NCBI GenBank assembly: GCA_014874175.1
Contig: JACWAD010000003.1
Coordinates: 1 to 34,605 of the forward strand
Source: Thermoleophilia bacterium
GTDB lineage: Bacteria; Actinomycetota; Thermoleophilia; BMS3ABIN01
Direction: 5' to 3'
Length of the DNA stretch: 34,605 nt
Shown: one piece after another, positions 763-26,001 of the stretch
How the letters are laid out: each line of letters begins with the position of its first letter
Position numbering within the stretch: position 1 is the first letter of the stretch
Made by a program: the position numbers and the translations under genes
Notes under the pieces: generated by a model
Told to the model about the DNA's origin: nothing
Databases searched by the model: none
Seen by the model: the letters and a program-made list of their open reading frames with translations, nothing else

Positions 763-2331
763 GTGGCCTTCAACGTAAATCAGACATCAGCTTATCTTCC
801 CCGTGTTGCTAAAGGTGCTTCAATCAATCTTTTTGGAGCCGCCAGCAGATCTCTTCTTCTTTTTGGTTATACATTGTTGCTTGCTCGGTCTTTGTCAGCA
901 GAACAATTAGGGCAATATTTCATCATGTTTAGCATGATCAATATCATGGGGCTTGTGGCGACGGTAGGCCTTGATTCTGGCGTTGTCCGTTATACATCCA
1001 TGTTGACAGGAGAGGGAAGATATGGGGAGACTCGTAAAATACTGAGCGCAGCCGTCATGTTAGGGGTTGGCATCAGCATAATCGTTACTGTCGCTATTAT
1101 TATCCTGGCTTCTTGGCTATCAGCAATCTTTCTCGACGGCAGCATACCTGCCGTGATATTGGTGCAGATTTTTGCTATTTCCATTCCGTTCTGGGTAGCT
1201 GCCCGTCTGTTTAATGCGGCTACTCAGGGTGTGCATCGGATGCAATATCAGGTTTATAGCCGAGATATTGGTGAACAGGTCCTCAAATTTGTTTTTTCGA
1301 TTGTGGCGATTGCAGCAGGTGCCGGTCTCGCCGGCGTCGTGTGGGCTAATGTTGCTTCTGTGGTGATAGCGATGGGGATGTCGCTATGGTTTGTGATACA
1401 GGTGCTTCCAGGAATGAAGGGGCGCGTCAGAGTCAGGCGCATTGAAGATGAACCAGGACTGGCCGGCCGTATGCTCCGGTATTCATTCCCTTTGGCTTTT
1501 TCCAATATTTTTGGGATGGTTCTTCTTTATACTGACTTGTTGCTTCTTGGTTATCTTGGAACCGCCACCGATGCTGGTTATTACGGTACGGCATTACGCC
1601 TAATCACCGGCAGCCAGGCTATTTTGCTGGCCTTCGCGACTGTTTTTACACCAGTTATTGCAGATCTTTATAACAGAGGCTGCAAGTCCGAATTGCAATC
1701 GTTATTTAAAACTGTCGGTCGCTGGATATTTATGTGTAATTTACCGATCTTTTTGATTTTGGTTCTTTTTGCTGATTCGGTTATGCATTTATTTGGTAGC
1801 AACTTTGGCGCCGGCAGCGGTGCGCTGATAGTGTTGGTTTTGGGGCAGCTTGTTAATTTTGGCACTGGCACCGCGGGCCTTATGGTGCTTATGTCTGGTC
1901 ATTCCAGAATGGAACTGTTTAATGTAAGCACTTCATTACTGTTCAATATCGTTCTTTGTTTCATACTTATTCCTAGTTATGGAATCATTGGGGCTGCAAT
2001 TGCGAATGCTATCGGTATCGGCGTTATCAATGTAATGAGAGCACTTGAAGTGTGGATAATTATGCGGATGCATGCCTACGACTTTCAATATTTAAAACCG
2101 GCGCTGGCCGGCCTCGGGGCAGCGCTATTAGTGCTTCTGGAAAAACGGTTCATAAACCATGGACTGGGTCTCGCACCGCTGGCGAGCTCAATCGTCGCAC
2201 TGTTGATTTCTTATACTCTGCTAACTTTTGTTCTTGGTGTAAATGAACAAGACAGAACTGTGCTACAACTCATTAAAAGTCGTCTGGCAAGGTCGAATCT
2301 GCCAGATGAAATAAATGAACAAACCGAGTAA
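763..2331 (+). CDS. Polysaccharide flippase, Wzx / MATE-like (MOP superfamily)
   Basis: The 522-residue protein is almost entirely hydrophobic, with about 12-14 predicted membrane segments, the usual size and layout of Wzx/RfbX-type flippases. The N-terminus (AKGASINLFGAASRSLLLFG, then LLLARSLSAEQLGQYFI) is the characteristic first helix pair of the polysaccharide biosynthesis protein family. Such proteins move undecaprenyl-linked repeat units from the cytoplasmic to the outer face of the membrane before polymerisation. The start is a GTG at 763; no convincing ribosome binding site precedes it, and the frame is closed by a TAG at 736. The 3' end overlaps the next gene, an O-antigen ligase-like protein, by 17 bases, so the two are probably co-translated. 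Substrate cannot be told from sequence. Confidence 0.9.
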   Translation: MAFNVNQTSAYLPRVAKGASINLFGAASRSLLLFGYTLLLARSLSAEQLGQYFIMFSMINIMGLVATVGLDSGVVRYTSMLTGEGRYGETRKILSAAVMLGVGISIIVTVAIIILASWLSAIFLDGSIPAVILVQIFAISIPFWVAARLFNAATQGVHRMQYQVYSRDIGEQVLKFVFSIVAIAAGAGLAGVVWANVASVVIAMGMSLWFVIQVLPGMKGRVRVRRIEDEPGLAGRMLRYSFPLAFSNIFGMVLLYTDLLLLGYLGTATDAGYYGTALRLITGSQAILLAFATVFTPVIADLYNRGCKSELQSLFKTVGRWIFMCNLPIFLILVLFADSVMHLFGSNFGAGSGALIVLVLGQLVNFGTGTAGLMVLMSGHSRMELFNVSTSLLFNIVLCFILIPSYGIIGAAIANAIGIGVINVMRALEVWIIMRMHAYDFQYLKPALAGLGAALLVLLEKRFINHGLGLAPLASSIVALLISYTLLTFVLGVNEQDRTVLQLIKSRLARSNLPDEINEQTE

Positions 2332-3703
2332 GAATTCAGAACTGATGCGAGCCGCCGTGGCGAAGCGTGCTGCTGGTGGTAGTTTGTTCAACGTAGCTCT
2401 CGTCACCATTGTTATTTTGGTTGCGGCGACGTTGCTCTATCCCGAATCCTATTCGAGTTTAAAGCTAAGCATCGGCGGCGTCCGCATAATACCCATGTTA
2501 GTTCTCTTTGCTTTGGCGGCTTCACCAGTCGCATTTTATTTATGGCGCCATCGCCGGAAACTCCATCTGGGCACGATTGATCTGGCGTTGTTGGCGAATG
2601 TCTGCTTTGTGACTGTGACGGGCCTCCTTTTTGCTACCAGCGCCAGCAATATGGGGTTAGTGCTGGCTCTTGCCGGCTATACGGTATTGCTTTATTACGG
2701 GGTTGCTGTCGTTGCCCAAAATCCAGTTGCAGTGAAAACAATCTTTTATACCTTGGCGATGTTGGGAGTGATCATTGCCAGCTATGCCATTGTTGAGCAT
2801 TTTGTTGGGAAAAACATCATTTATGGCGGAATAACTGCTGAGAAAGTTCCGATAAAGGCGGAGAGTGCACCGTATCATCGCAGCAGCTCATCGCTAGGCA
2901 ACCCGCCAGCTCTCGGATTATTCATGGTGCAAGTAGTCCCATTCCTGCTATTTTTTTTCGTGCGCGCATCTGCGCGTCTGAAACAAGTTCTTTGGGGGGC
3001 TGCGGTGATGATGACTTTGGCTGCCTTGCTGTTTACGTTTAGCAAGGGTAGCTGGATTGCCGCGTTGGTTGTTCTTGTATTTGCACTTTTCTTTCTTGCT
3101 CGCCAGCGACGGCAGATTTCCTCTCGTTTGAAGATAAGCTTGATTGTTGTTTTCGTTAGCTGTCTAGCAGCGATGGCGACAGTGGGCCTGAGTGCGTATC
3201 GCGATCTTAGCTATAACGTTGTTTCTCAGCAACGGCAGATGGAGAGTTTTGGTCTGCGCTGGATCCAATGGAGTCATTCCCCGGCTTCTATTGCTGCGCA
3301 CCCATTGATCGGCGTTGGCGTATGGCAGGGAGCTGAGAGTGTGTTTCAAATCATGGTTAGGGAAGGTGACCAGCATCCAGAAAAAGCCATTCCTGTGGAC
3401 AACCTTTATCTCAACACGCTGGTGGAGGAGGGGCTGGTGGGTTTTTTCCTGCTTGGTGCTACGCTGGCACTGATTGGCATCCAGGCCTGGCGATTAATCC
3501 GGAAAGGCTTGAAATATTCCGGCGCGGTTGTGACCATTGCGGCCAGCATGGCGGCGGTTCTCATAAATGGCTTCACCGTCGATATATTGCTAACCTGGCC
3601 GATCATGGTCGTTTTTTGGATGTCAGCCGGAATGGTCAGAGCCCGGGCGGAGATTTCAGCTGCGCGAGGCGAAACACCAGTTTGTCTTCCGGAGGAGCCG
3701 TAA
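2315..3703 (+). CDS. O-antigen ligase / Wzy polymerase-like membrane protein (first copy)
   Basis: This is a 462-residue integral membrane protein with roughly 10-12 hydrophobic segments, typical of the O-antigen ligase (Wzy_C) family. A large hydrophilic loop lies at about residues 285-365, followed by the family signature region: VDNLYLNTLVEEGLVGFFLL matches the conserved (H/D)N-x-yl-x-l-x-e-x-Gl-x-G pattern, though the usual His before Asn is Asp here. Family members either polymerise undecaprenyl-linked repeat units or ligate glycans to a lipid or protein acceptor on the outer side of the membrane. The ATG at 2315 lies inside the end of the flippase gene, indicating an operon. A second protein of the same family is encoded at 5357-6805, so one may polymerise and the other ligate; the sequence does not decide which. 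Confidence 0.85.
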   Translation: MNKPSKNSELMRAAVAKRAAGGSLFNVALVTIVILVAATLLYPESYSSLKLSIGGVRIIPMLVLFALAASPVAFYLWRHRRKLHLGTIDLALLANVCFVTVTGLLFATSASNMGLVLALAGYTVLLYYGVAVVAQNPVAVKTIFYTLAMLGVIIASYAIVEHFVGKNIIYGGITAEKVPIKAESAPYHRSSSSLGNPPALGLFMVQVVPFLLFFFVRASARLKQVLWGAAVMMTLAALLFTFSKGSWIAALVVLVFALFFLARQRRQISSRLKISLIVVFVSCLAAMATVGLSAYRDLSYNVVSQQRQMESFGLRWIQWSHSPASIAAHPLIGVGVWQGAESVFQIMVREGDQHPEKAIPVDNLYLNTLVEEGLVGFFLLGATLALIGIQAWRLIRKGLKYSGAVVTIAASMAAVLINGFTVDILLTWPIMVVFWMSAGMVRARAEISAARGETPVCLPEEP

Positions 3704-4280
3704 ATTCGTTCAGATGATTTGGCCCGCGCTGAATGCTTGGAATTTCAATTTGATTTGTTTACTCTAGTTATATGAATGTGCAGTCAGATGAAGCCTTGGA
3801 AGCATACTTGGGACTCAGAAACCAGCAGTATCAAAATACTGTCTTTGGGTTTAGAAACCCAGTAACTGCAACTGGTAGGCTGACCGAACGGCTTGGCTGC
3901 TTCTTGCTTAAGTGGTTGGTTAATATTGCCGAAACCGACAACGCAGCTAGGCAAGATAGCGATATTTCGGAGCGGATTCTCGACGAGAAAAAGTAAGCTC
4001 ATAGATAATATCGAAATAGTATGCAGGGAGCTTAACGCTTGGAACATAGCTGATCAACTCGGACCTGCTGGCGTGGCTGTACCCCGGGTTTTACCAGAAG
4101 GTTTTTTTAATGCAACGCAACCTTCGATCAGTATTAAATTAAGTGATCTCCGCGTCGGTTTGAAGTTTCGATGCAGGAGGAATAGCTTTTTTCTGCTTGA
4201 CTGATGGAACTTGGGCGAAAAAGGTGGGGAATCAAAAAGATAAATTTGTATTTGTTTAAACAAGACATGAAAGGAAATTA
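3704..4280 (+). other. 577-base gap with decayed coding sequence, no intact gene seen
   Basis: No complete gene is evident. A 74-codon open stretch at 3772-3996 begins MNVQSDEALEAYLGLRN and has protein-like composition. After it stops, a second frame continues with a protein-like stretch from about 3990 to 4204 (containing ADQLGPAGVAVPRVLPEG), and a third frame is open from about 4171 to 4260. Three successive open segments in three frames over ~490 bases suggest a single gene broken by frameshifts, but I do not recognise its family. It could also be non-coding sequence. The last bases (4270-4280) hold the AAGGA ribosome binding site of the following Wzz-like gene. Confidence 0.35.
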
Positions 4281-5054
4281 GTGGATCTCGTTGAGTTTAT
4301 TGGAATAATTAGAAAATGGAAGTGGATGGTGCTGGTGGTTGTGGTTGTCGTGACTGCGTATCTTGTGGTCTCAGTTATTCGTAGTCCGGCTTCCTACGTT
4401 GCGGAGGCCAAAGTAATGCCAGGGTTGACCCAGATTGCCTCATCGAACGTTGCCGGCGTCAGCTTGGCTCAGGGTGGCGAGCGTGTTGGCGATGTGTATG
4501 CAGAGCTTGTTACATCTCAACCAGTGATGCAAGCGGCGCTGGATAAAGCCGGACTGGGCTGGCCCGTTGAGCGGTTACGCACGCTTGTATCTTCTTCAGT
4601 TGCGCCGAATACTCCCGTGATAAAAATTGATGTGTCTGATTCTGATTCTCAACAGGCCAAGTTACTGGCTAACTCGGTCGCAAATGCTTTTGTGGATTAT
4701 ATTAAAGATGCAAGCAATTCTGGCGCCGCCAATGCTCAGGGGGTAGTCTTAAAACAATTGAATGACGTCAACACCCAAATAAGCGCCCAAAATGCTAAGA
4801 CTCAACCTGATGAGAGCATGATTAAAGCACTGCAGGATCGAAGAGATTTAATAGTTAAAGAGTACCAAGATCTGCTGGATCAGCAGGCAAATGCAGCCGA
4901 CATACGGGTGGTAGACCCGGCGACCACCTATTCAGGTTCTGGAATGTCTGGTACGCAGAAGGTGGCCATCGGACTTATAATCAGCGTGGTTGCCGGAATA
5001 GTATTGGCTTTCGTGGCCGAGGCGGTGCGCAAGTCGTGGCGGCCCGTCCCTTAG
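4281..5054 (+). CDS. Wzz-type chain-length determinant / polysaccharide co-polymerase
   Basis: The 257-residue protein starts at a GTG with AAGGA six bases upstream. The topology is that of a Wzz-domain protein: a short N-terminal cytoplasmic stretch (DLVEFIGIIRKWKW), membrane segment 1 at about residues 15-35 (very Val-rich), a ~190-residue extracytoplasmic region with a polar, Gln- and Asn-rich helical part (about 145-205), and membrane segment 2 at about 228-247. Such proteins set the length of the polymer made by Wzy and often assist export. There is no tyrosine-kinase (BY-kinase) domain after the second membrane segment, only ~10 residues, and no separate kinase gene is nearby. It sits between the two Wzy/ligase-like genes, fitting a Wzx/Wzy-dependent pathway. 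Confidence 0.85.
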   Translation: MDLVEFIGIIRKWKWMVLVVVVVVTAYLVVSVIRSPASYVAEAKVMPGLTQIASSNVAGVSLAQGGERVGDVYAELVTSQPVMQAALDKAGLGWPVERLRTLVSSSVAPNTPVIKIDVSDSDSQQAKLLANSVANAFVDYIKDASNSGAANAQGVVLKQLNDVNTQISAQNAKTQPDESMIKALQDRRDLIVKEYQDLLDQQANAADIRVVDPATTYSGSGMSGTQKVAIGLIISVVAGIVLAFVAEAVRKSWRPVP

Positions 5055-5356
5055 CGTTGATTCGGTTTCAGTAGGAGCCAGGGCTTGGTAAGCAAACAGG
5101 GGGTAACGCGACAGTTCTCGCAATGGTATCTTCGTGAAAGCTTGCTTGCTCTGGCCGTACCCTCGTTTCAATAAGAAATGGATAGTCAAGTCCCTGCCTT
5201 TCTATCACAAGCTGATGCCCGGTGGTCAGGCCTTGCTCTACTAGGCGGGCACTAAGCTTGACGAGCATTTCGAATTGTTCAGCGATTGCCATCCATTAAC
5301 GGGATCTAGAGTGTGAGGCTGAGAACAGTTTCGCAAAGTGATTTAGAAGAATTGAC
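5055..5356. other. 302-base gap; possible minus-strand gene remnant
   Basis: No plus-strand gene is seen. On the minus strand, 5292 down to 5068 encodes 74 residues beginning MAIAEQFEMLVKLSARLVEQ and containing HQLVIERQGLDYPFLIETRV, which has a convincing protein-like composition, but there is no ribosome binding site before its ATG and I do not recognise the family. It could be a remnant of a gene inserted in the opposite orientation. The final ~60 bases before 5357 contain only a weak AGAAG ribosome-binding-like motif. Confidence 0.3.
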
Positions 5357-6805
5357 ATGAGCGGCTTTGAAAAAACTGAGGTAACGGAAAATCTTAAACC
5401 GGCAGCAGCCGGCAAGTTGCTGCTGGGGTTGATTGCCGGTTTAATCCTGATACAGATATTAAACCTTGGTTGGTTATTTTCTTTACTGCTGCTTGGAGTC
5501 TTTGTTCTATTCATTGTCAGCCTGGATGGCTATAACGCTTGGCTGGTCTTACTAGTTGCTACTACGATGAGTGGGTTAAGGTATTATGGTATTAGCGGTA
5601 CGCGCATTCGTCCCGACCAGGTTGTCTTGATCATTATAATGGCAGGTTGGATCCTGGCTTTGCTTATTGGAAAGAGGCGGTTCAATAAGGTGCCGCTTTT
5701 ATTTCCAGTGATTTTATTCATTGCTGTCAACTTCTTCGCCACTTTGTATTCACCCAATGGAGGGGGCAGGTATAAAGACGTCCTACTTCTTAGCGTCTAT
5801 GTGATGATGTATATCATAAGTGTTTCCGTTCTTCAGGATCACCCGGACAGGCTGAGAAGGGCAGTCAAAATCTTGTTGGCACTAGGGGTTGTTCAGGCTG
5901 CTTACGCGCTGGCTGCTTTTGTTGCTAATCACGCTGGCGTCAATTTGGGCGGCGTAGGCTCCCGTCAGGTAGGGACATTGAGCTTGCAGGGCACGTTTGA
6001 AGAGCCAAACTTCCTGGGGGCTTTCGAAGCAGTGATTGGCTTGATGTTTTTAAGCTTTCTGACCTCGCCAATAAATTTAATAAAAAGAGGCGTTGCCATT
6101 GTAAGTCTGATACTTATCCTTGTTGTGCTCGCATTGACTTTTACCCGCGCAGCTTGGGTGGGATTCGCTATTGCGCTGATGTTGCTTATTTTTCTCCAAA
6201 AGCCTGCTCGCAATATCTTTAATCCGCGCGCGGCAGTGGCTGCCTTGGCAATAACAGCAATTGTTGTCGTAGTTATTGTCCCATTTGCGAACAACCTCTC
6301 TTCCGGAGTGATAAGCCAACGGGTTGGGGCACTCCTGGATTTCAGCGGTGGATCAGGTCAAACTAGGGTACAGGCACAGAAATTGGCCATCGAAGATTGG
6401 CGCAGCTCCGCGCTTCTGGGCAAAGGCACAATGTCTCTGGATACTAATTCTCTTGAAAACGGGGCGTCTGAGGAGGAAAAGGCTAAATCTCAGGGGTGGG
6501 TCTATAGCTCTGTAATCCAGGCTCTTCATGACACCGGTATTATTGGTCTAATGATATTTTTGTGGATACAAGGCGGCATTTTTCTGGAAATAACAAGAGG
6601 GTACCTAAGGACTAAAGATAATTTTTATCGTGCTTCTCTGGTTGGATTTGGCCTTGGCAGCGTAGCAATGTTAATTTCTTCCCAGGCATCATCATTCATG
6701 TGGTTGGGATTCTTCTGGATATTTTCAGGGATGGCGGTGGCGGTATCCCAAGTTGCCCGCAGGGAAGGGGTTGCAGAATCCAAGTCGCAAGTCAAGGTTG
6801 TTTGA
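5357..6805 (+). CDS. O-antigen ligase / Wzy polymerase-like membrane protein (second copy)
   Basis: This 482-residue protein has about 11-12 hydrophobic segments and the O-antigen ligase family layout. Features include a loop with GTFEEPNFLGAFEAVIGL (residues ~211-228), a central run of helices with the LTFTRAAWVGFAIAL block (~255-270, a typical family motif), a large loop at about 320-390, and then SSVIQALHDTGIIGLMIFLW, matching the conserved x-l-x-dtGliGl block. It lacks close similarity to the first copy at 2315, so it is a distant paralogue rather than a recent duplicate. Likely role: polymerising or ligating glycan chains at the outer face of the membrane together with the flippase and Wzz-like protein. 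The ATG at 5357 is preceded by weak AGAAG. Confidence 0.85.
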   Translation: MSGFEKTEVTENLKPAAAGKLLLGLIAGLILIQILNLGWLFSLLLLGVFVLFIVSLDGYNAWLVLLVATTMSGLRYYGISGTRIRPDQVVLIIIMAGWILALLIGKRRFNKVPLLFPVILFIAVNFFATLYSPNGGGRYKDVLLLSVYVMMYIISVSVLQDHPDRLRRAVKILLALGVVQAAYALAAFVANHAGVNLGGVGSRQVGTLSLQGTFEEPNFLGAFEAVIGLMFLSFLTSPINLIKRGVAIVSLILILVVLALTFTRAAWVGFAIALMLLIFLQKPARNIFNPRAAVAALAITAIVVVVIVPFANNLSSGVISQRVGALLDFSGGSGQTRVQAQKLAIEDWRSSALLGKGTMSLDTNSLENGASEEEKAKSQGWVYSSVIQALHDTGIIGLMIFLWIQGGIFLEITRGYLRTKDNFYRASLVGFGLGSVAMLISSQASSFMWLGFFWIFSGMAVAVSQVARREGVAESKSQVKVV

Positions 6806-7043
6806 AGTTGCAACTTTGTCCTTCCAGGAGATCCATTTGAAATACTCCCCTGTCCAGAAACAGGTGTCAGTCCGTACGGGGAGCTTATGATTCCAAGCTT
6901 GCAGTTAAAAAATGGTTTTTAAGATTAGGGTTGCAGGCGGATTGGTGGTAACTATGTTCCAGGACTGGCTAGTTTTAGTAATCACAAGCACAATCGGTGC
7001 AATTCAGTGGGTTTATGACTGAGAAATTTTCTTAGGTATCATC

Positions 7044-8285
7044 ATGCCACATCAACCGGATTCCAACGTCTTTCTTCCAATTGGCAGTGCCGAGTGGTGG
7101 CTATTGGTTTCGACGGCGCGGCTACATCTCGCTGATCACAGGCTTGCCGAGTTGGAGCGCTTGCTGCGTCAAGAGATTGACTGGGATAAAGTTGTTCCCG
7201 CGAGTATTTATCATGGCACTGCCGGCTTGTTATTAAAGCACTTGTTATCGATTCCTGCCAAGAAAGACATACCCGCTGCAGTTATTGATAGGTTGCAGTC
7301 ATTCTACTTGAGGATGACCGCCATGGGGATGAAACAGTTGGCGCAGTTTCAAGAGGTTGCTGAAGCCTTAAATCAAGCTGGAGTTGAGTTGATAACGCTA
7401 AAAGGAGCTGTCTTGGCTGAGACTCTCTATGGCGACCTGGGGTTACGGCCGCTTTCTGATGTTGATGTTATTGCCAGGGAGTCAGACTGGCAAGAAATAT
7501 GTAACGTCCTGGCGAAGTTGAACTATAAATCGCTCGCGGATGAGTTGAAGCCTTTACCTCCGAAACTAACCCGCTATGATGTGAAGACGCATGTTCAGTT
7601 TGTCTCGCCGGCGGGAACCTACCTCGAGTTTCAGTTCGATTTATTTACCGTGGGTATTGGCATGCGAGACATGGCTGGCGTTTGGGATCGTTCTCGCTGG
7701 GTCGAAATCGGCGGCGTGGGCAGGAGGGTATTGGGGGCAGAAGATCAGTTACTTCACCTGTTGGTGCATGCAAACAGGCACGGCTGCTCCCGATTAAAAT
7801 GGATCGTAGATATTAATGAATATTTGAATGAGAATCAGGATCTTGACTGGAATTTGTTTGCGTCGATTGCGCAAAGAGAGAAAGTCATTTCCTTTGTATT
7901 TCAGACACTCGTTTACATCGAGCAGTTATTTGATACTCCCCTGATCAGTCACGAAGTGCTTGAGCAGCTTAGGCCTAATAGTTTCCAGCAGGCTTTGTGG
8001 CGGGCGGTTTGGCCACGCAGGCAGCTGTATCATTTTCGTGGACGTGATGAGGATGCGATATGTTATTATTTTTATAAGCCATTTAGTGGCTGGAATCTGA
8101 TCAATTTTGCCCTGGCAGGGCGCGTGCGGGACAAGATAGGTTATCAAGCAAGATGGATCGTGCCCTCTTTCGATTGGATGGCACAGGTTTACCAGCAGCC
8201 TAAGTCTCTTGGTCTGATTAAGTATTATCCGCTGCGGCTGATGGAGCGTTCGCGAAGCCGAAGCCAAAAAAAACAAAAAAATTGA
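7044..8285 (+). CDS. Nucleotidyltransferase-fold protein (PF14907-like)
   Basis: The 413-residue protein carries the polymerase-beta-like nucleotidyltransferase signature: GVELITLKGAVLAETLYGD (about residues 113-131), then LRPLSDVDVIAR with the SDVD acidic pair, as in the uncharacterised nucleotidyltransferase family PF14907. Downstream it has HLLVHANRHGCSRLKWIVDI (about 236-255), also typical of that family. The substrate is unknown. Members occur in exopolysaccharide clusters and in several peptide-tailoring (lasso peptide) clusters, and both contexts occur within this window. The ATG at 7044 has no strong ribosome binding site. The gene runs toward the minus-strand glycosyltransferase, with only 13 bases between the two stop codons and no terminator-like hairpin there. 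Confidence 0.75.
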   Translation: MPHQPDSNVFLPIGSAEWWLLVSTARLHLADHRLAELERLLRQEIDWDKVVPASIYHGTAGLLLKHLLSIPAKKDIPAAVIDRLQSFYLRMTAMGMKQLAQFQEVAEALNQAGVELITLKGAVLAETLYGDLGLRPLSDVDVIARESDWQEICNVLAKLNYKSLADELKPLPPKLTRYDVKTHVQFVSPAGTYLEFQFDLFTVGIGMRDMAGVWDRSRWVEIGGVGRRVLGAEDQLLHLLVHANRHGCSRLKWIVDINEYLNENQDLDWNLFASIAQREKVISFVFQTLVYIEQLFDTPLISHEVLEQLRPNSFQQALWRAVWPRRQLYHFRGRDEDAICYYFYKPFSGWNLINFALAGRVRDKIGYQARWIVPSFDWMAQVYQQPKSLGLIKYYPLRLMERSRSRSQKKQKN

Positions 8286-8298
8286 CGCGTAAATTTTA

Positions 8299-9465
8299 TC
8301 AGACATCGCATGCGTCGAGGTTCGTAGGTTGCGATCTGTTGGCAACAAGCAGAGCGCGGTAGACTCTCATTGTTTTTAAGGCTGTCTTTTCCCAGGTAAA
8401 TTTACTTGATCTTTCCAGTCCATCTTGGATTAGTTTATGGCGTAGCTTGGCGCTTGTTAAGAGCTCCTGCATCTTTGCAGCGATGTCCGGGACATTTACC
8501 GGATTAAAGTAGAGAGCCGCCTCTCCCAGTATTTCAGGAATGCAGGGCGCTCTCGAAGCGGCAACCGGCAGCCCGAAGCTCATCGCCTCCAAAGGGGGGA
8601 AGCCGAAACCCTCACAAAGCGATGGATATACAAAAAGTGAGGCATTTTCATACAGGGCAGCCAGCAGAGAATCGGAAACGTGCCCCAGGAATATAACTTG
8701 GTCATTAATCTTTTCTCGATTTGCAATTGATTCCAGTAGACCTTGGTCGCGGCCCGGGGGCCCGGCCAGTACAAGTTTATGTCCCAAATGCTGGTCTTTT
8801 TTGCAGATGTTGACATATGCTTTTACCAGGTTCCCCAGGTTTTTATTGGGCTCGGTGGCTCCGACTGAAAGAATGTACGGCTTTAGACGTGATGCGATCA
8901 TATAATCTTCAGGAGAAGCTTTACGGTGAGGGAGCCCGAGGGGGATCACGTCAATATTAACGGGGTTTGCCCCCAGCAGCCTGACAATTTCGGCTTTGCT
9001 TGAATTTGTGTCGCAGATAATGCGGCTGGCATGGCTCGCTGCGTATCGGAAGGTCCTGTCGGCGTAGAGCCGCCATAAGGGATCGCGCCCCTGGGGGTTA
9101 GTGATGAAATGCGCATCGTGGATGGTGCAGACTTGCGGGATACGCAGCGTTGGAGAAACAGCATTTGCTGGAGAATGAAATAAATCCAGCTTCAGGCGGT
9201 GAGCAACGAGGGGTAATAGCACCGTAAGCCAGGTGACTTCGATTCCAAAATTGCCGAATTTTGTCAGGATGTTTTTCCGGGGCAGCGGCCTGGGGGCTCT
9301 TAACGCGATGAACTCGAGACCTTCTGGTTCGAGGGCTCTAAGGGCTTGAAATAGATGGTGGGCGTAAACACTGGTTCCCGTAGTTATGCGGTCTAGAATT
9401 GAGAGATCGATTCCGACTCGACGGACGGGCGCCACTGACGATGTATTTACGGGCTTACAAACCAT
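8299..9465 (-). CDS. Glycosyltransferase family 4
   Basis: A GT-B fold GT4 enzyme of about 388 residues. The N-terminal acceptor domain starts with VRRVGIDLSILDRITTGTSV, and the C-terminal donor domain has PYILSVGATEPNKNLGNLV and EGFGFPPLEAMSFGLPVAAS, which contains the E-x7-E motif (EGFGFPPLE) for the nucleotide-sugar donor. It is closest in style to mannosyl- or rhamnosyl-transferases acting on lipid-linked sugars; donor and acceptor are unknown. The frame stays open back to 9600, but residues encoded above 9465 do not look like protein, so I prefer the ATG at 9465-9463; no ribosome binding site helps. It is the only minus-strand gene inside the glycan locus, which suggests separate transcription or a local rearrangement. 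Confidence 0.88.
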   Translation of the reverse strand: MVCKPVNTSSVAPVRRVGIDLSILDRITTGTSVYAHHLFQALRALEPEGLEFIALRAPRPLPRKNILTKFGNFGIEVTWLTVLLPLVAHRLKLDLFHSPANAVSPTLRIPQVCTIHDAHFITNPQGRDPLWRLYADRTFRYAASHASRIICDTNSSKAEIVRLLGANPVNIDVIPLGLPHRKASPEDYMIASRLKPYILSVGATEPNKNLGNLVKAYVNICKKDQHLGHKLVLAGPPGRDQGLLESIANREKINDQVIFLGHVSDSLLAALYENASLFVYPSLCEGFGFPPLEAMSFGLPVAASRAPCIPEILGEAALYFNPVNVPDIAAKMQELLTSAKLRHKLIQDGLERSSKFTWEKTALKTMRVYRALLVANRSQPTNLDACDV

Positions 9466-9647
9466 GACAAATCTGCAACACGATTTTAGCATGTTTAAAG
9501 CTTTTAAAACGCCGAGCGGATTTAATGAAATGGAAAACAATCCATTCGCTCTGAGTCCAGATATTGGGGTGGCTGTTGCGCAGATTGTCAAATCCGGCAA
9601 TAAGAGCCATAAAGCTGATCTTGTTGAATAGTAGAAATTAAGGTCGA

Positions 9648-10808
9648 TTGTCCACCTTGTCAGGAAAAAAAATCCTGCTGGTCCATTCCTCTGCAGAGCT
9701 CTATGGCTCAGATCGATGTTTGATCAGCATTGCCCGAGGGCTTGCGGATAGCGGGGCTGCGGTTCATGCGGCGCTCCCTTGCCCGGGGCCTTTGGTCGAC
9801 CAGCTAAGAAATGCCGGTACAGAAGTTCATATTATCGACACCATAGTTTTCAGGCGTGACATGGTTAATGCCCGTGGTCTTTTCAAGCTGCTTTTTAAAG
9901 CTCCGGTTTCAATATTCAAGTTGGTATGTTTGATACGGAAAGAAAAGTTTGACCTGGTGCATACAAATACCGGCGTCACACTGGGCGGCGCATTCGCAGC
10001 CGCTGTGACTCGCACGCCGCACGTCTGGCACTTTCGCGAGGTCTTAAGTGAATTTGGATTTTTTCTGCAGCTTCATCAGCCGTTGGTACGGTTACTATCC
10101 CGGCGTATCATCTTCATCACCGCGGCAGTACAGGACCAGTTTAATTCTGATCGTCTTAAGCAAAAAGGCATAATAATTCATGACGGAATTAATATCCAAA
10201 ATTATGAGGTTGGCCAGGAGAGCGATGATGGACAGGTTGTGATCACGACGGTGGGACGCCTGGCTTCTTATAAGGGTCAAAATGTGTTGCTTGAGGCTCT
10301 TGCAAAAGCAAAAGCCGGAGGCCTTGGCTTGAAAGCGTATATCGTCGGTGATATTTACGGTAATCGCTTTGCGTTCAGGGATAGCTTAAAAAGACAAGCA
10401 AAAGAGCTGCTTATCGAGGATTGTGTTTTCTTTACAGGATTTCAAACAGACATACGGCCTTTTTTGGAAAAATGCAATTTGTTTATTTTGCCATCAGTTC
10501 GTCCGGAGGGGCTGGGAATTGTCATATTGGAAGCCATGGCGGCTAAGCGAGCGGTAATTGCTTCTGACTCAGGAAGTGCCCGTGAAGTTATTAATCATCA
10601 GGAGGACGGTTTCCTGGTGCCTCCAGGAGACAGTGACAGTATGGCTACCGCGATTTTAAAACTGGCAAATGATCAAAAAGAACGCCATCGGTTGGCCGCA
10701 AGCGGAAAAGCAAAAGTGGCGCATAAGTTTTCCGAAGAAATAATGGTCGGAGCTGTGATGGCTTTATATGACGATGTGCTTGGAAGCCAGAGCGGAATGG
10801 AATGTTAG
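9648..10808 (+). CDS. Glycosyltransferase family 4
   Basis: The 386-residue GT-B enzyme starts at a TTG (9648) preceded by TTAAGG. The N-terminal motif KKILLVHSSAELYGSDRCLI is the typical GT4 opening (glycine loop, acceptor side). The donor domain includes VTTVGRLASYKGQNVLLEAL, FFTGFQTDIRPFLEKCNLFI and PEGLGIVILEAMAAKRAVIA, the last containing the E-x7-E donor motif (EGLGIVILE), followed by the SGSAREVI loop. It should add one sugar to a lipid-linked glycan at the cytoplasmic face of the membrane; specificity cannot be read from sequence. It is divergently arranged from the other GT4 gene (8299-9465), with 182 bases between the two start codons. Confidence 0.9.
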   Translation: MSTLSGKKILLVHSSAELYGSDRCLISIARGLADSGAAVHAALPCPGPLVDQLRNAGTEVHIIDTIVFRRDMVNARGLFKLLFKAPVSIFKLVCLIRKEKFDLVHTNTGVTLGGAFAAAVTRTPHVWHFREVLSEFGFFLQLHQPLVRLLSRRIIFITAAVQDQFNSDRLKQKGIIIHDGINIQNYEVGQESDDGQVVITTVGRLASYKGQNVLLEALAKAKAGGLGLKAYIVGDIYGNRFAFRDSLKRQAKELLIEDCVFFTGFQTDIRPFLEKCNLFILPSVRPEGLGIVILEAMAAKRAVIASDSGSAREVINHQEDGFLVPPGDSDSMATAILKLANDQKERHRLAASGKAKVAHKFSEEIMVGAVMALYDDVLGSQSGMEC

Positions 10809-11382: not shown

Positions 11383-11419
11383 TTAAGGGGAGGCGGTGCT
11401 CACGCACCCACGCACTTAG

Positions 11420-11501
11420 CTTCAGTTAAGGGCAAACCTGTCGCGAGGCAGGGGCGCAAAACCAAGGGTCTCTTTGGAGACAGCCTGGTTGCCTGAAGGA
11501 G
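11420..11501 (+). promoter_or_regulatory. Cyclic di-GMP-I riboswitch (GEMM-I)
   Basis: The aptamer matches the GEMM-I consensus in primary and secondary structure. P1: GGCAA 11431-11435 pairs with TTGCC 11489-11493. P2: CCTGTC 11437-11442 pairs with GGCAGG 11447-11452 and is closed by a GCGA tetraloop at 11443-11446. The conserved GGGGCGCAAAACC linker follows. P3: CCA 11462-11464 pairs with TGG 11486-11488, and GTCTC 11468-11472 with GAGAC 11477-11481, with the tetraloop-receptor strands AAGG and ACAGCC between them. P1 can be extended by CTTCA 11420-11424 pairing with TGAAG 11494-11498, which covers the first half of the GAAGGAG ribosome binding site (11495-11501) of the gene starting at 11508. 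No poly-T terminator lies between aptamer and gene, so control of translation start is likely. The ligand c-di-GMP is established for this class; ON or OFF direction is not shown. Confidence 0.93.
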
Positions 11502-11507
11502 TTAAAA

Positions 11508-13220
11508 GTGCACAGGAGCTTCCCGCTTTTTCCGGTCATATTGGCCGTTGCTTCCACTGTGAGTTCTTTAACCCTCATTTTCGGGCTTTCTGCTGAAAAA
11601 GCAGATGCAACACCCAGCCCTTTAGTGATTTCTGAGGATTCTGTTAACGGGCGCGTTACAGTTGAGGGCGATACTGTAAAAGCTGTTTGGCATTATAAGG
11701 CTCTGCCCTCCGAGAATTACAATCAGGGCGGTGGAAACTTATATGAGCTTTATTACAAGCCAATGGACCCGTCGGAGGGTCGGAACTTAGTCTCCTTTAC
11801 AAATTATGGGAATCCAAACTCAACGACGATCTGGGCCGGCATTGGCGGCGTTGGCGGGACAGATATTTATGCAGACGATTCCGCCCCGGGCGCCGATCAA
11901 AGTAATGGTTTTGCTGACTTGATTTCGGACAATAACGCCAGCGGCACCGTTGTATCTCACTCGGCTTACACAGACGGTCAGGGCGACGCCGTCCTGAATT
12001 TTGTCATAAATGTACACAATCAGTCAACCGGAAAGGACTGGTACAGTGTTTCAAAGACTTGGACGGTCGAGCCAAGCGGTGCAATTCACGAAGCAGAAAC
12101 CTGGACAATTATAAATTCCGGATATTTTGCGGAGCCGGCCCTTCGCTCGGGCTGGAGTTATTATGTTGGCTGGGACCGCTTCAGTAAATATGGCCGCAAC
12201 TGGTACGATCCAAATAACGCAACTTACTTGTTGGGGCACGATAATATAGAAAACGAAACGGCCCAGTCCTGGGACATTCTAAATGCATTTCATGCCGACT
12301 GGGTAGCCTTTACCGGCTCACCAATTGCGCCAACTGTAAAAATGACTGCAGACAACAATGGACAGGGTTTTCGGGGAAGCGGCTTATATAAGCTGAGTGT
12401 GCAAGTTTGGGGCTCAGGGAGTCAAGCAATTGCTGAACAATGCTCTGAATTAGGAGGTGTAACGGGCGCCCAGGAAATAAACTGGATGGCTTGGTGGGGA
12501 GGCAATCCTCCCGAAGGCAACCGTTACAAGTGGCTTTCCGCTGGGACGAGCTGGAGCGACAGCTATCGTATCGACCTGTTCCCGGGGACACCCGGGGGCG
12601 GCCCTGATATTTCTAATGTAAATGCGCAAAATAACGGAAGTGGTTCTGAGCATATTAGCTGGACTACCGATGTTGCTTCCGATTCCGAGGTGGACATTCT
12701 TGACCCAAACGGGCTCAGGTGGCCAGGCAATTGGAATAACTCAGGCGCAGACGGCTCCCTTACGACAGGTCACGCAATTCAGATTTCCGGGTTGCAGCCG
12801 GGATCCTCATATATATTCGAGGTTAAAAGCCGCGACGCAAATGGCAATCTGGCGGTTAGCAGTGATTACCAGTTAAGCGTTCCGTATGCCCCCAGCTTGG
12901 ATCTTGCAGTGAACAACCAAAATGTTTACTGGAAAAGTTATCAGGATTATTTGAACAATCTGTTATCTGTTGATTTCATTGTTAAAAACCAGGGGATAAA
13001 ACCGGTAAATTCAGTTGCCATAGGTTCAATTGCAGCTTCGAGCAATGTATTGGCCACAACGGCAATGCCGTTATTTCTGGGAGATATAAATCCTGGCGGT
13101 GAAGTAAAATTTACTGTCGCTTATCAGGTGCCGACCGGTGTCGACAAATTTTTCACATCGTTATCCGGGTCGGGTACCGGCCCAAACGGAGAATCGCTCG
13201 ATTTTCCCTCGAAGAGCTAG
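11508..13220 (+). CDS. Large secreted protein with FnIII domain, under c-di-GMP riboswitch control
   Basis: The 570-residue protein starts at a GTG seven bases after a strong GAAGGAG site. A Sec signal peptide is clear: positive start (MHR), hydrophobic core about residues 8-27, likely cleavage after a KADA-like site near 34. Residues ~35-360 form one Trp-, Tyr- and Asn-rich region without a motif I recognise, probably all-beta. Residues ~366-457 look like a fibronectin type III domain (SEHISWTTDVASDSEVDI, then GLQPGSSYIFEVKSRDANGN). Residues ~460-570 resemble an Ig/CARDB-like beta domain (LLSVDFIVKNQGIKPVNS). No sortase motif, membrane anchor or catalytic signature is seen. With the riboswitch and the surrounding glycan genes, a biofilm-matrix or glycan-binding/processing role is a reasonable inference only. 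Confidence 0.8.
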   Translation: MHRSFPLFPVILAVASTVSSLTLIFGLSAEKADATPSPLVISEDSVNGRVTVEGDTVKAVWHYKALPSENYNQGGGNLYELYYKPMDPSEGRNLVSFTNYGNPNSTTIWAGIGGVGGTDIYADDSAPGADQSNGFADLISDNNASGTVVSHSAYTDGQGDAVLNFVINVHNQSTGKDWYSVSKTWTVEPSGAIHEAETWTIINSGYFAEPALRSGWSYYVGWDRFSKYGRNWYDPNNATYLLGHDNIENETAQSWDILNAFHADWVAFTGSPIAPTVKMTADNNGQGFRGSGLYKLSVQVWGSGSQAIAEQCSELGGVTGAQEINWMAWWGGNPPEGNRYKWLSAGTSWSDSYRIDLFPGTPGGGPDISNVNAQNNGSGSEHISWTTDVASDSEVDILDPNGLRWPGNWNNSGADGSLTTGHAIQISGLQPGSSYIFEVKSRDANGNLAVSSDYQLSVPYAPSLDLAVNNQNVYWKSYQDYLNNLLSVDFIVKNQGIKPVNSVAIGSIAASSNVLATTAMPLFLGDINPGGEVKFTVAYQVPTGVDKFFTSLSGSGTGPNGESLDFPSKS

Positions 13221-13395: not shown

Positions 13396-14160
13396 TTGAC
13401 CGAATCAACAAAACAACACTGGGATACCTTCTGGCTTTTGGACTCAGGCCATACTGAGCCAAATCACAAGCTCGTTAAATCCGTTTTGTCGCTGGGCAGC
13501 CCCTATGGCTGGAAAACCTTGGAAGTCGGCGCCGGGAGAGGAGCGGATAGCATCTTCCTGGCTCAAAATGGAGCAGAAAGTTATGTTTTGGATTATTCTC
13601 AAGAGGCGCTAAAAATGAGTGAAGCGCTGGCTAGCCAAGCCGGCATCGAATTGAACCTGGTGAAAGCTGATGCATTTGCCTTGCCATTTGAGGAAGGAAC
13701 TTTTGATCTGGTTTTTCATCAGGGATTCTTAGAGCATTTTCATGATCCGCATATAATCCTTGAGGAACAACGCCGCGTATTGAAAACCGGGGGTCACATT
13801 TTGGTTGATGTACCGCAGAAGTATAGCCTTTACACTCTTCGAAAACAGATTGCTATACGTCGCGGAACGTGGTTTGCCGGTTGGGAAACCCAGTACAGCC
13901 TGCGCCAGCTGGAGAAAATTATGGAGCGTAGCGGTTTCAGCGTAGTTAACACTTATGCGTGGGGTATGGCTGCCTCGTATGGGTGGGGGGTAAGGAATGC
14001 CTTGCATTGGATAAAAAGAATTTCTTCACGGTCTGGCGAAGCCAATGATGACGGGGACAGCAACAAAACCGGCGTGGAAAACAATATGAAAAGCTCGCTT
14101 TTCATATCGAGAGTTTTACCCTATCTGGCCGACAATATCGGCGTTATCGGCCAGAAATGA
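13396..14160 (+). CDS. Class I SAM-dependent methyltransferase
   Basis: The 254-residue protein has the Rossmann-type methyltransferase motifs. Motif I is LEVGAGRGADSIFLA (about residues 38-52), and an acidic strand end follows in YVLDYS (motif II). Next come LVKADAFALPFEEGTFDLVF (motifs III-IV) and then HQGFLEHFHDP, the EHxxDP-like block of Methyltransf_11 family enzymes. The C-terminal third carries the substrate-binding part. The substrate is unknown; in this context a sugar, a polyprenyl-linked glycan or a secreted product is possible. The start is TTG at 13396, weakly supported. It ends four bases before the stop codon of the convergent B2-type protease gene, without a terminator hairpin between them. 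Confidence 0.85.
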   Translation: MTESTKQHWDTFWLLDSGHTEPNHKLVKSVLSLGSPYGWKTLEVGAGRGADSIFLAQNGAESYVLDYSQEALKMSEALASQAGIELNLVKADAFALPFEEGTFDLVFHQGFLEHFHDPHIILEEQRRVLKTGGHILVDVPQKYSLYTLRKQIAIRRGTWFAGWETQYSLRQLEKIMERSGFSVVNTYAWGMAASYGWGVRNALHWIKRISSRSGEANDDGDSNKTGVENNMKSSLFISRVLPYLADNIGVIGQK

Positions 14161-23790: not shown

Positions 23791-26001
23791 ATGAATCCAT
23801 CAATTCTCCCGGGCCGAGTAATTCAAGGCTTGCGCCGGCTCTTAAACGCAATTGATGTCAGGGTCTTCGCCATCGCCATGGCGGGGGTCGCCTTTCTGTT
23901 CCTATGGGGGCTGATGGCGAGCGTATTCCTGCCCTCGCAATACAATCTCAAGACCGGCGACGTTGCCCAGGACCTTATCCGTTCGCCCCGCACTCTTACC
24001 TTCGAAGACAAGTCACAGACGGCAAAGCTGCAGCAGCAAGCCATAAACCAGGTACCGAAGGTGTATACATTTGATTCCTCCGTGCTCGCAGGTGTGGAAA
24101 AAAATATCGGCGGGTTTTTTGACAACGTGTCCCTGATTGTCTCACAGGAAAAGAGCGCCGCTCAAGCCAAGGGCCAGGCATATGATCCCAGCCGGGCGGT
24201 GGCGCGCATACAGGCCCTGCCGGGGCTGCCGTCGATTTCTCCGGCGGCGCTGACGACGCTGGCAGGGCTGGGAACCGACCGCCTGGCTTTGGTGCGCACC
24301 GCGGTGCTTGACAGTGAGCAGCTCATTCTGGAAGGAAACGTCACGGACGATTCCCTGCCGACCGACAAGGGCAGGCTGAAGGCAGTTCTGGGGACGCGGC
24401 CCCTAACGGGTCCTGAGCTTGACGCCGCCTCGGAGGTGGGGAGCGCTTTCCTAAAGCCCAATAATATTGTCAACCAGCAGAAGACCCAGCAGGCCAGGGA
24501 CCAGGCTGCCGCGCAGGTGCAGCCGGCGGTAATCACTGTACAGAAGGGGGAGACAATCGTGTCGCCGGGGCAGGTGGTGACGCCCGGGATCGAAAGCAGG
24601 CTGGAGGCTTTGGGCCTGACTCAGTCCGGCGGCAGGTATGGCACCCTGGTGGGCATCAGTTTGCTGACGCTGCTGGAAATATTGATGTTGAGCGTCTACG
24701 TTAAAAAATTCGAGCGGCGGGCAAGGGAATCACGCTCGCTCCTCTTTATTGGGGCCTCTTTGTTGATATTGTTTGGTATTATTGCCAGGGTCTCCGTGAT
24801 AGAGCCGCTGTCGCCGCTGATTGTGCCGATGGCGGCGCTGGGCATGCTGGCGACGCTGATGTTGCAAACCCGTCTGTCCGCACTGCTGGTTGTCATCTCC
24901 AGTATCAATCTGGCCGTAGTGGCCGGCTCCGATCCCCAGTTCATTCTTGTCGGCCTCTTGGGGGGACTGTCGGGAACTTTCCTGGTTACAAACGTGAGCC
25001 GCCGCCGCGACCTGATGGTGGCAGGGATGCTGGCCGCCCTGGTGGTTGTGGCCGCCGCGGCAGCCGCCAGCCAGATTAGCGAGACCTCGTGGTCCCGTGC
25101 TGGGGCGGCGGTCGCCTGGGGCGCCGGCAACGGCTTTCTCTCCATGGTGGCGGCCAGCGGATTGATTACCATTTATGAGTTGTTCTTCAACCTGCCCACG
25201 CCGCTGAAGCTCCTGGAGCTGGCGGATCCCACCCAACCGCTGCTCAAGGAGCTTATGATGAAGGCGCCGGGCACGTACAATCACAGTGTAATCATGGGCA
25301 ACATTGCCGAGACCGCGGCGGAGGAGATTGGCGCCAATCCGTTGCTGGCTCGGGCAGGGGCCTACTACCATGACATAGGCAAGCTGAACCGGCCAGATTA
25401 CTTTATTGAAAACCAGTTCCATATCAAAAACCCGCACGACCGGTTGACGCCGGGCCTGTCAAAGCTGGCAATCACGGCGCATGTGCGCGATGGCGTCAGG
25501 CTGGCCAAGGCTGAAGGATTGCCGCCTGAGATCCTGGATATCATCGAGGAGCATCATGGCACTACTGTGCTATCATATTTCTACCATAAGGCTCAAGTAA
25601 GTTCCGGCGGCCAGGTTGATGAAGAGACCTACCGCTATGCGGGACGGAAGCCCGCCTCCCGCGAGGCTGCCATCATCATGCTGGCCGACTCGGTCGAAGC
25701 GGCCGTGCGCTCGCTGAAAAATCCGACCATGAAAAATATAAAGGCGGTGATCCGGGAGATTTTCAATCAGCGGCTCCGCGACGGCCAGCTGAGCGAAAGT
25801 AAGCTTACCTTCGGGGATCTGGACAGGGTGAGGCAGGTATTTGAGAAAAGCCTGCGCGGCTTTGGCGCCACCCGGATCGCATACCCGAGCCGGAGGGATG
25901 TGCAGGCGGCCGGGCGCGGGGAAAAGATCAAAGCGGCCCCGGCGGCAGGAAAGCTGCAGCCGCAAAAAACAAGGGCCAATGGCGGCGAAAAGCGGAGCTG
26001 A
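23791..26001 (+). CDS. pgpH: PgpH-type 7TM HD-domain phosphodiesterase (c-di-AMP specific family)
   Basis: The 736-residue protein has the 7TMR-HDED / 7TM / HD layout of PgpH (YqfF). One membrane segment lies at about residues 28-52, followed by a ~230-residue extracellular domain (TLTFEDKSQTAKLQQQAINQ, to QKGETIVSPGQVV), a block of about seven membrane helices (~290-475), and then the cytoplasmic HD domain (~490-650). The metal ligands are visible in YNHSVIMGNIAETAAEE, YYHDIGKLNRPDYF, EEHHGTTVLSYFYHKA and IIMLADSVEAAVRSL. Characterised members hydrolyse cyclic di-AMP to pApA and so affect potassium and cell-wall homeostasis; substrate here is assigned by family. The 3' end overlaps ybeY by 23 bases. 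The last ~40 residues are a basic, Ala/Lys-rich tail. Confidence 0.93.
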   Translation: MNPSILPGRVIQGLRRLLNAIDVRVFAIAMAGVAFLFLWGLMASVFLPSQYNLKTGDVAQDLIRSPRTLTFEDKSQTAKLQQQAINQVPKVYTFDSSVLAGVEKNIGGFFDNVSLIVSQEKSAAQAKGQAYDPSRAVARIQALPGLPSISPAALTTLAGLGTDRLALVRTAVLDSEQLILEGNVTDDSLPTDKGRLKAVLGTRPLTGPELDAASEVGSAFLKPNNIVNQQKTQQARDQAAAQVQPAVITVQKGETIVSPGQVVTPGIESRLEALGLTQSGGRYGTLVGISLLTLLEILMLSVYVKKFERRARESRSLLFIGASLLILFGIIARVSVIEPLSPLIVPMAALGMLATLMLQTRLSALLVVISSINLAVVAGSDPQFILVGLLGGLSGTFLVTNVSRRRDLMVAGMLAALVVVAAAAAASQISETSWSRAGAAVAWGAGNGFLSMVAASGLITIYELFFNLPTPLKLLELADPTQPLLKELMMKAPGTYNHSVIMGNIAETAAEEIGANPLLARAGAYYHDIGKLNRPDYFIENQFHIKNPHDRLTPGLSKLAITAHVRDGVRLAKAEGLPPEILDIIEEHHGTTVLSYFYHKAQVSSGGQVDEETYRYAGRKPASREAAIIMLADSVEAAVRSLKNPTMKNIKAVIREIFNQRLRDGQLSESKLTFGDLDRVRQVFEKSLRGFGATRIAYPSRRDVQAAGRGEKIKAAPAAGKLQPQKTRANGGEKRS

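Follow-up and report, generated by a model that had tools for sequence, protein, structure and literature searches.

The type example of the c-di-GMP-I aptamer family RF01051, Vc2 of Vibrio cholerae, contacts c-di-GMP through nucleotides G20, A47, and C92 (position numbering from PMC4744006). The Vc1 riboswitch, which precedes gbpA, shows a positive response to c-di-GMP (PMC4744006), and in C. difficile the class I switches are uniformly OFF whereas class II switches, including that of pilA1, are ON (PMC6366702). Furthermore, rare GEMM-I variants sense c-AMP-GMP (PMC7266159), and type IV pili of Rubrobacter are under the control of c-di-GMP via a sigma/anti-sigma switch (PMC8325347).

Here we analyzed 34,605 nucleotides of a Thermoleophilia bacterium contig (JACWAD010000003.1, positions 1 to 34,605; hereafter the window), which carry an element of this known type in a little-studied host lineage. 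The element shares with Vc2 its fold, the tetraloop/receptor, the G20/A47/C92 contacts, and a position in the 5' leader, but its aptamer abuts the Shine-Dalgarno sequence, its flanking helix includes the start codon, and its host belongs to another lineage. Like the class I switches of C. difficile (PMC6366702), it is a class I aptamer with a predicted OFF effect on a surface function; however, the C. difficile switches act by transcription termination, whereas the leaders of the group to which the window's gene belongs (class A below) are without a terminator. Vc1 is likewise a class I aptamer before a secreted glycan-related protein (PMC4744006), yet it is an ON switch whose leader is long and shows no apparent anti-Shine-Dalgarno sequence, in contrast to the short leader and predicted OFF sign found here. 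We read the window element, with a probability of roughly 60%, as a canonical class I c-di-GMP riboswitch that would turn OFF the translation of a secreted and probably glycan-active protein.

The aptamer and its contact nucleotides

The first-pass annotation had placed a c-di-GMP-I riboswitch at 11420-11507, and a covariance search bore this out: RF01051 matched 11421-11496 on the forward strand with 65.8 bits (gathering score 35 bits; E=8e-13 for the genome) and over the full length of the model (positions 1-87 of 87), while 0 of 14 control genomes contained a match. Every aptamer part it had named was also present, namely P1 (strands CUUCAG/CUGAAG), a P2 tetraloop of the GNRA type (GCGA, 11443-11446), the linker GGGGCGCAAAACC, and the P3 receptor strand (ACAGCC, 11480-11485); the 3' end of the aptamer reads GGUUGCC. 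The site of the element held, with a small correction to its boundaries: because the aptamer flanks are predicted to form a helix that takes in the Shine-Dalgarno sequence and the start codon, the functional element spans about 11412-11511. The leader contains the following features:

11412-11423, forward strand: 5' strand of the flanking helix P0 (GCACUUAGCUUC), with 11498-11504 and 11507-11511 as its predicted partners and the pairing kept in orthologues
11422-11497, forward strand: c-di-GMP-I aptamer, from the aligned RF01051 and RF03167 matches
11431, 11458, and the region of 11492 or 11493, within the aptamer: contact nucleotides G20, A47, and C92, the last in the GCC of the 3' end
11496-11501, forward strand: Shine-Dalgarno sequence AAGGAG, read from the sequence, with its GGAG within the P0 3' strand
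11498-11511, forward strand: 3' strand of P0, including GGAG and the GTG start codon, with predicted pairing that is conserved in orthologues

In a scan of the whole of Rfam, a model of the same clan, RF03167 (c-di-GMP-I-GGC), matched 11422-11497 with 70.9 bits (cut-off 59 bits; E=4.7e-15 for the window), and after clan competition the top label was RF03167 rather than RF01051. Having this as the best-scoring Rfam model would favor placing the window aptamer in the GGC variant class, with a ligand preference of its own. The GGC variant was reportedly defined by Weinberg et al. in 2017, and we take its name to refer to nucleotides 20-47-92. Although the window resembles RF03167 in overall sequence, the two differ at contact position 47, where the RF03167 consensus (GACGCGAA) has G and the window (GGCGCAAA) has A, as do all 58 related aptamers. 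We therefore rejected membership in the variant class in spite of the score and regard a separate ligand preference on this basis as highly improbable; given A47, the RF03167 label seems to reflect general sequence likeness and not the binding site. Clan competition in Rfam can evidently give canonical aptamers a GGC variant label.

We next read the contact positions from an alignment of 59 aptamers (that of the window and 58 others) from the GTDB family, grouped by downstream protein. A47 and C92 were present in 59 of 59 and G20 in 56 of 59, and the window carries all three nucleotides of the c-di-GMP set. Judged by its contact nucleotides, the window element is an ordinary c-di-GMP aptamer. 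The remaining three aptamers have A20 instead of G20 (G003:C3:4894, G005:C10:35102, and G016:C24:25540), and in G003 and G005 the gene behind this aptamer is an orthologue of the one regulated in the window; the aptamers of G016:C38 and G018:C2 are G20.

A20 in two orthologous aptamers could mean that the window aptamer, or some of its orthologous counterparts, senses c-AMP-GMP or both signals and not c-di-GMP alone, as a G20A change enables cGAMP binding by GEMM-I (PMC6274999) and some natural variants sense c-AMP-GMP (PMC7266159). The c-AMP-GMP aptamers of Geobacter (GEMM-Ib) have the same fold, and the three A20 aptamers of the relatives share their nucleotide 20. However, the GEMM-Ib class needs A at position 20, and the window itself has G20 along with A47 and C92; we rejected that class for the window and consider c-AMP-GMP sensing in this broader sense very unlikely. 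The G20/A20 differences between orthologous switches on the same gene could reflect a ligand shift from c-di-GMP towards c-AMP-GMP, and such orthologous pairs are material for work on possible ligand changes in cyclic-dinucleotide riboswitches.

Two aptamers of the family are divergent in sequence (G013:C2:2616-2693 and G018:C2:14089-14166; 41-43 bits), with GGCGACC replacing GGCAAACC, and are followed by a gene whose 109-aa product has a tail rich in Ala, Glu, and Pro.

The flanking helix P0 and the predicted sign of the switch

In all eight complete orthologues (8/8), an aptamer ends 6-14 nt ahead of the start codon, the GTG of the window's gene at 11508 lying 11 nt past its aptamer, and all eight belong to class A, which comprises 18 large secreted proteins. 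The complementarity of the aptamer flanks, compared with shuffled sequences, had a mean z of -1.98 in class A, as against -0.11, 0.22, and 0.12 in the three classes with terminators. Consistent with this, the matched flanks of seven orthologues gave -16.7 kcal/mol versus -13.4 kcal/mol for swapped flanks (permutation test, p=0.002); when only the GH26/39 group was considered, significance was not reached (p=0.25). Terminators were found in 0 of 18 class A leaders, in contrast to 13 of 13 in class B, 10 of 12 in class C, and 11 of 11 in class D, and we accordingly dropped a terminator-type expression platform for the window gene. Thus, flank pairing and the missing terminators in class A support a translational switch in which the ligand, by closing P1 and P0, would turn expression OFF. 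P0 is compatible with the ligand-bound fold because it is nested outside P1. Since the whole leader in the window has an ordinary folding energy (z -1.03), it is these comparative tests, and not stability, that argue for P0.

In the mechanism that we propose, binding of c-di-GMP would close P1, and the closed P1 would stabilize P0 stacked outside it, so that ribosome entry would be blocked; at low c-di-GMP, P0 would more often be open and the protein would be made. An OFF sign is likely for the window switch on these sequence grounds. If so, high c-di-GMP would lower the amount of the 570-aa protein, whereas c-di-GMP is usually expected to promote surface and matrix functions.

Folding models of the window RNA make both the switching range and the sign uncertain, because thermodynamic prediction already buries the Shine-Dalgarno sequence in the ligand-free state, and forcing the aptamer raises the mean unpaired probability of GGAG from 0.02 to 0.56 while the start codon is sealed (unpaired 0.001). 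The window RNA also has an alternative fold of near-equal energy, and its 5' strand forms a ligand-free hairpin (11415-11430) that is not conserved in orthologues. The greater exposure of GGAG would suit the same c-di-GMP riboswitch acting as an ON switch, whose Shine-Dalgarno sequence would be hidden by P0 or by a coding-region hairpin without ligand and partly freed when the ligand forces P1 in the CUUCAG/CUGAAG register; activation of Vc1 by c-di-GMP is a precedent (PMC4744006). However, the sealed start codon of the forced-aptamer fold argues against this, as does the finding that what the orthologues conserve is P0, a helix that the bound state can accommodate. We regard an ON switch as doubtful and continue with the translational OFF switch.

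The regulated gene, its product and its surroundings

The regulated gene lies next to a glycan locus, with the following features:

763-10808, strand unassigned: glycan locus, with Pfam matches to a Wzx-like flippase, two Wzy_C/ligase-like proteins, a Wzz-like protein, NTP_transf_5, and two GT4-type glycosyltransferases
11508-13220, forward strand: regulated gene with GTG start, encoding the 570-aa exported protein P0001 (open reading frame, orthologues in the family, N-terminal signal)
11616-12593, forward strand: N-terminal domain (residues 37-362, approximately), lineage-restricted and of no known family
12606-12857, forward strand: FnIII-like domain (residues ~367-450), from a weak Pfam fn3 match and the orthologue profile
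12870-13211, forward strand: C-terminal domain (residues ~455-568), recurring at many places in each family genome

P0001 has a hydrophobic N-terminal signal, which is its only membrane segment, and is without an LPxTG motif. The first-pass description of a signal-peptide protein with an FnIII domain agrees with this, the FnIII part being weak: the Pfam fn3 match reached 18.9 bits, under the cut-off of 25, and the orthologue profile matched solved FnIII domains with a best E of 2e-4. For the N-terminal domain, no homology was found in Pfam, NCBIfam, or PDB, nor did any of 296 genomes from the phylum have a match outside the GTDB family. The 8-23 matches per family genome fall mostly on the C-terminal domain, which is common to several sister targets; recurring as it does in many family proteins, it may be a surface-attachment or sorting module. 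Structure prediction of P0001 with four sequences was of low confidence (mean pLDDT 43.7), and the nearest named relatives encoding P0001 are Actinomycetota metagenome bins (Actinomycetes, Thermoleophilia, and Actinobacteria bacterium).

The glycan-locus setting claimed earlier was confirmed by the Wzx-, Wzy-, and Wzz-like and glycosyltransferase neighbors, and it is similar in two relatives (L133 and L134), where the orthologous gene lies near genes for a Wzy-like ligase, a glycosyltransferase, and a nucleotidyltransferase. The proposal that the riboswitch controls this one gene only is plausible, but no terminator was found between the gene end at 13220 and the next open reading frame at 13396, which makes polar effects possible.

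This setting, together with export and the FnIII-like domain, would also suit an adhesin or a structural protein of the matrix that sessile cells produce, and adhesins are among the known targets of c-di-GMP riboswitches (PMC6366702, PMC4933901). We consider such a role unlikely: secreted glycoside hydrolases are what the same riboswitch layout precedes in the sister targets, the switch is predicted to be OFF, and the LPxTG search found no anchor in P0001. The earlier term 'matrix-like' thus has nothing to sustain it, a structural matrix role being nowhere indicated. By analogy with the sister targets, P0001 is likelier to be a glycan-active or glycan-binding exported protein than a matrix-like one.

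The source genome (1.78 Mb in 107 contigs, 96% complete) has 15 GGDEF and 10 HD-GYP-type (HD_5) matches, from which the host can probably both make and break down c-di-GMP. No EAL or PilZ domain was matched in this genome, the one tested, and riboswitches may be a main c-di-GMP output of the host. The window also encodes, at 23791-26001, a 7TMR-HD protein with 7TMR-HDED, 7TM, and HD domains, a layout shared with PgpH-type c-di-AMP phosphodiesterases.

Riboswitches and their targets across the family

RF01051 exceeded its cut-off in 18 of 19 genomes of the GTDB family, and nearly all of the 59 aptamers precede genes for exported proteins. Besides the large secreted proteins of class A, the targets are 13 type IV pilins and one more that is truncated where its contig ends (class B), two small secreted families with 12 and 11 aptamers (classes C and D), and a single pair (class E), while two further aptamers fall outside all classes. 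Class A also includes matches to GH26, to GH99/GH71, and to PslG (E=7e-8), a biofilm-polysaccharide glycosidase of Pseudomonas. In front of a paralogue in G007 (C81:37934) no aptamer match was found. As predicted from sequence, this is a lineage-wide riboswitch regulon of exported proteins, with secreted glycoside hydrolases, type IV pilin, and two small secreted families as its targets. The view that such regulation is little described in the lineage may hold for the literature, our search having found no description of c-di-GMP riboswitches there, but the aptamer itself is common, being present in 129 of the 296 genomes sampled across the phylum. The regulon of c-di-GMP riboswitches in these uncultivated actinobacteria is well supported, and no published account of it was found.

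The pilin switches point to the same sign by another route. In class B, the terminator has a 5' arm (UGUGGUUUGCC) with complementarity to GGCAAACCAC of the aptamer itself (mean z -1.94), which suggests OFF, since the ligand would hold the aptamer and thereby free the terminator. This differs from C. difficile, which has a class II ON riboswitch before its pilin gene, whereas the pilin switches described here are of class I with a predicted OFF sign. With P0 and the pilin terminators both pointing to OFF, low c-di-GMP would favor pili and glycan-active enzymes. More tentatively, and with less likelihood than not by a wide measure, OFF riboswitches acting on the exported proteome may carry most of the c-di-GMP output in the family, with orthologous switches shifting toward c-AMP-GMP; if the exported-proteome part of this were true, a low signal would turn on pili and the remodeling of surface glycans.

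The host genome itself carries a second aptamer (C73:32036-32129), upstream of a type IV pilin. It lies within a type IV pilus gene run (L131 20-4643; G000:C73:28019-32642) in the order pilB-like, pilT-like, pilC-like, a SigB/F/G-like sigma factor gene, riboswitch, pilin, and minor pilins. The sigma factor in this run recalls the c-di-GMP sigma switch on the pili of Rubrobacter (PMC8325347). Furthermore, six genomes (G006:C7, G009:C39, G010:C8, G011:C208, G013:C6, and G018:C17) share an arrangement of two divergent riboswitches separated by about 5-10 kb, one of the pair preceding a gene for a GH26-type or related secreted protein and the other a gene for a small secreted protein of ~180-206 aa.
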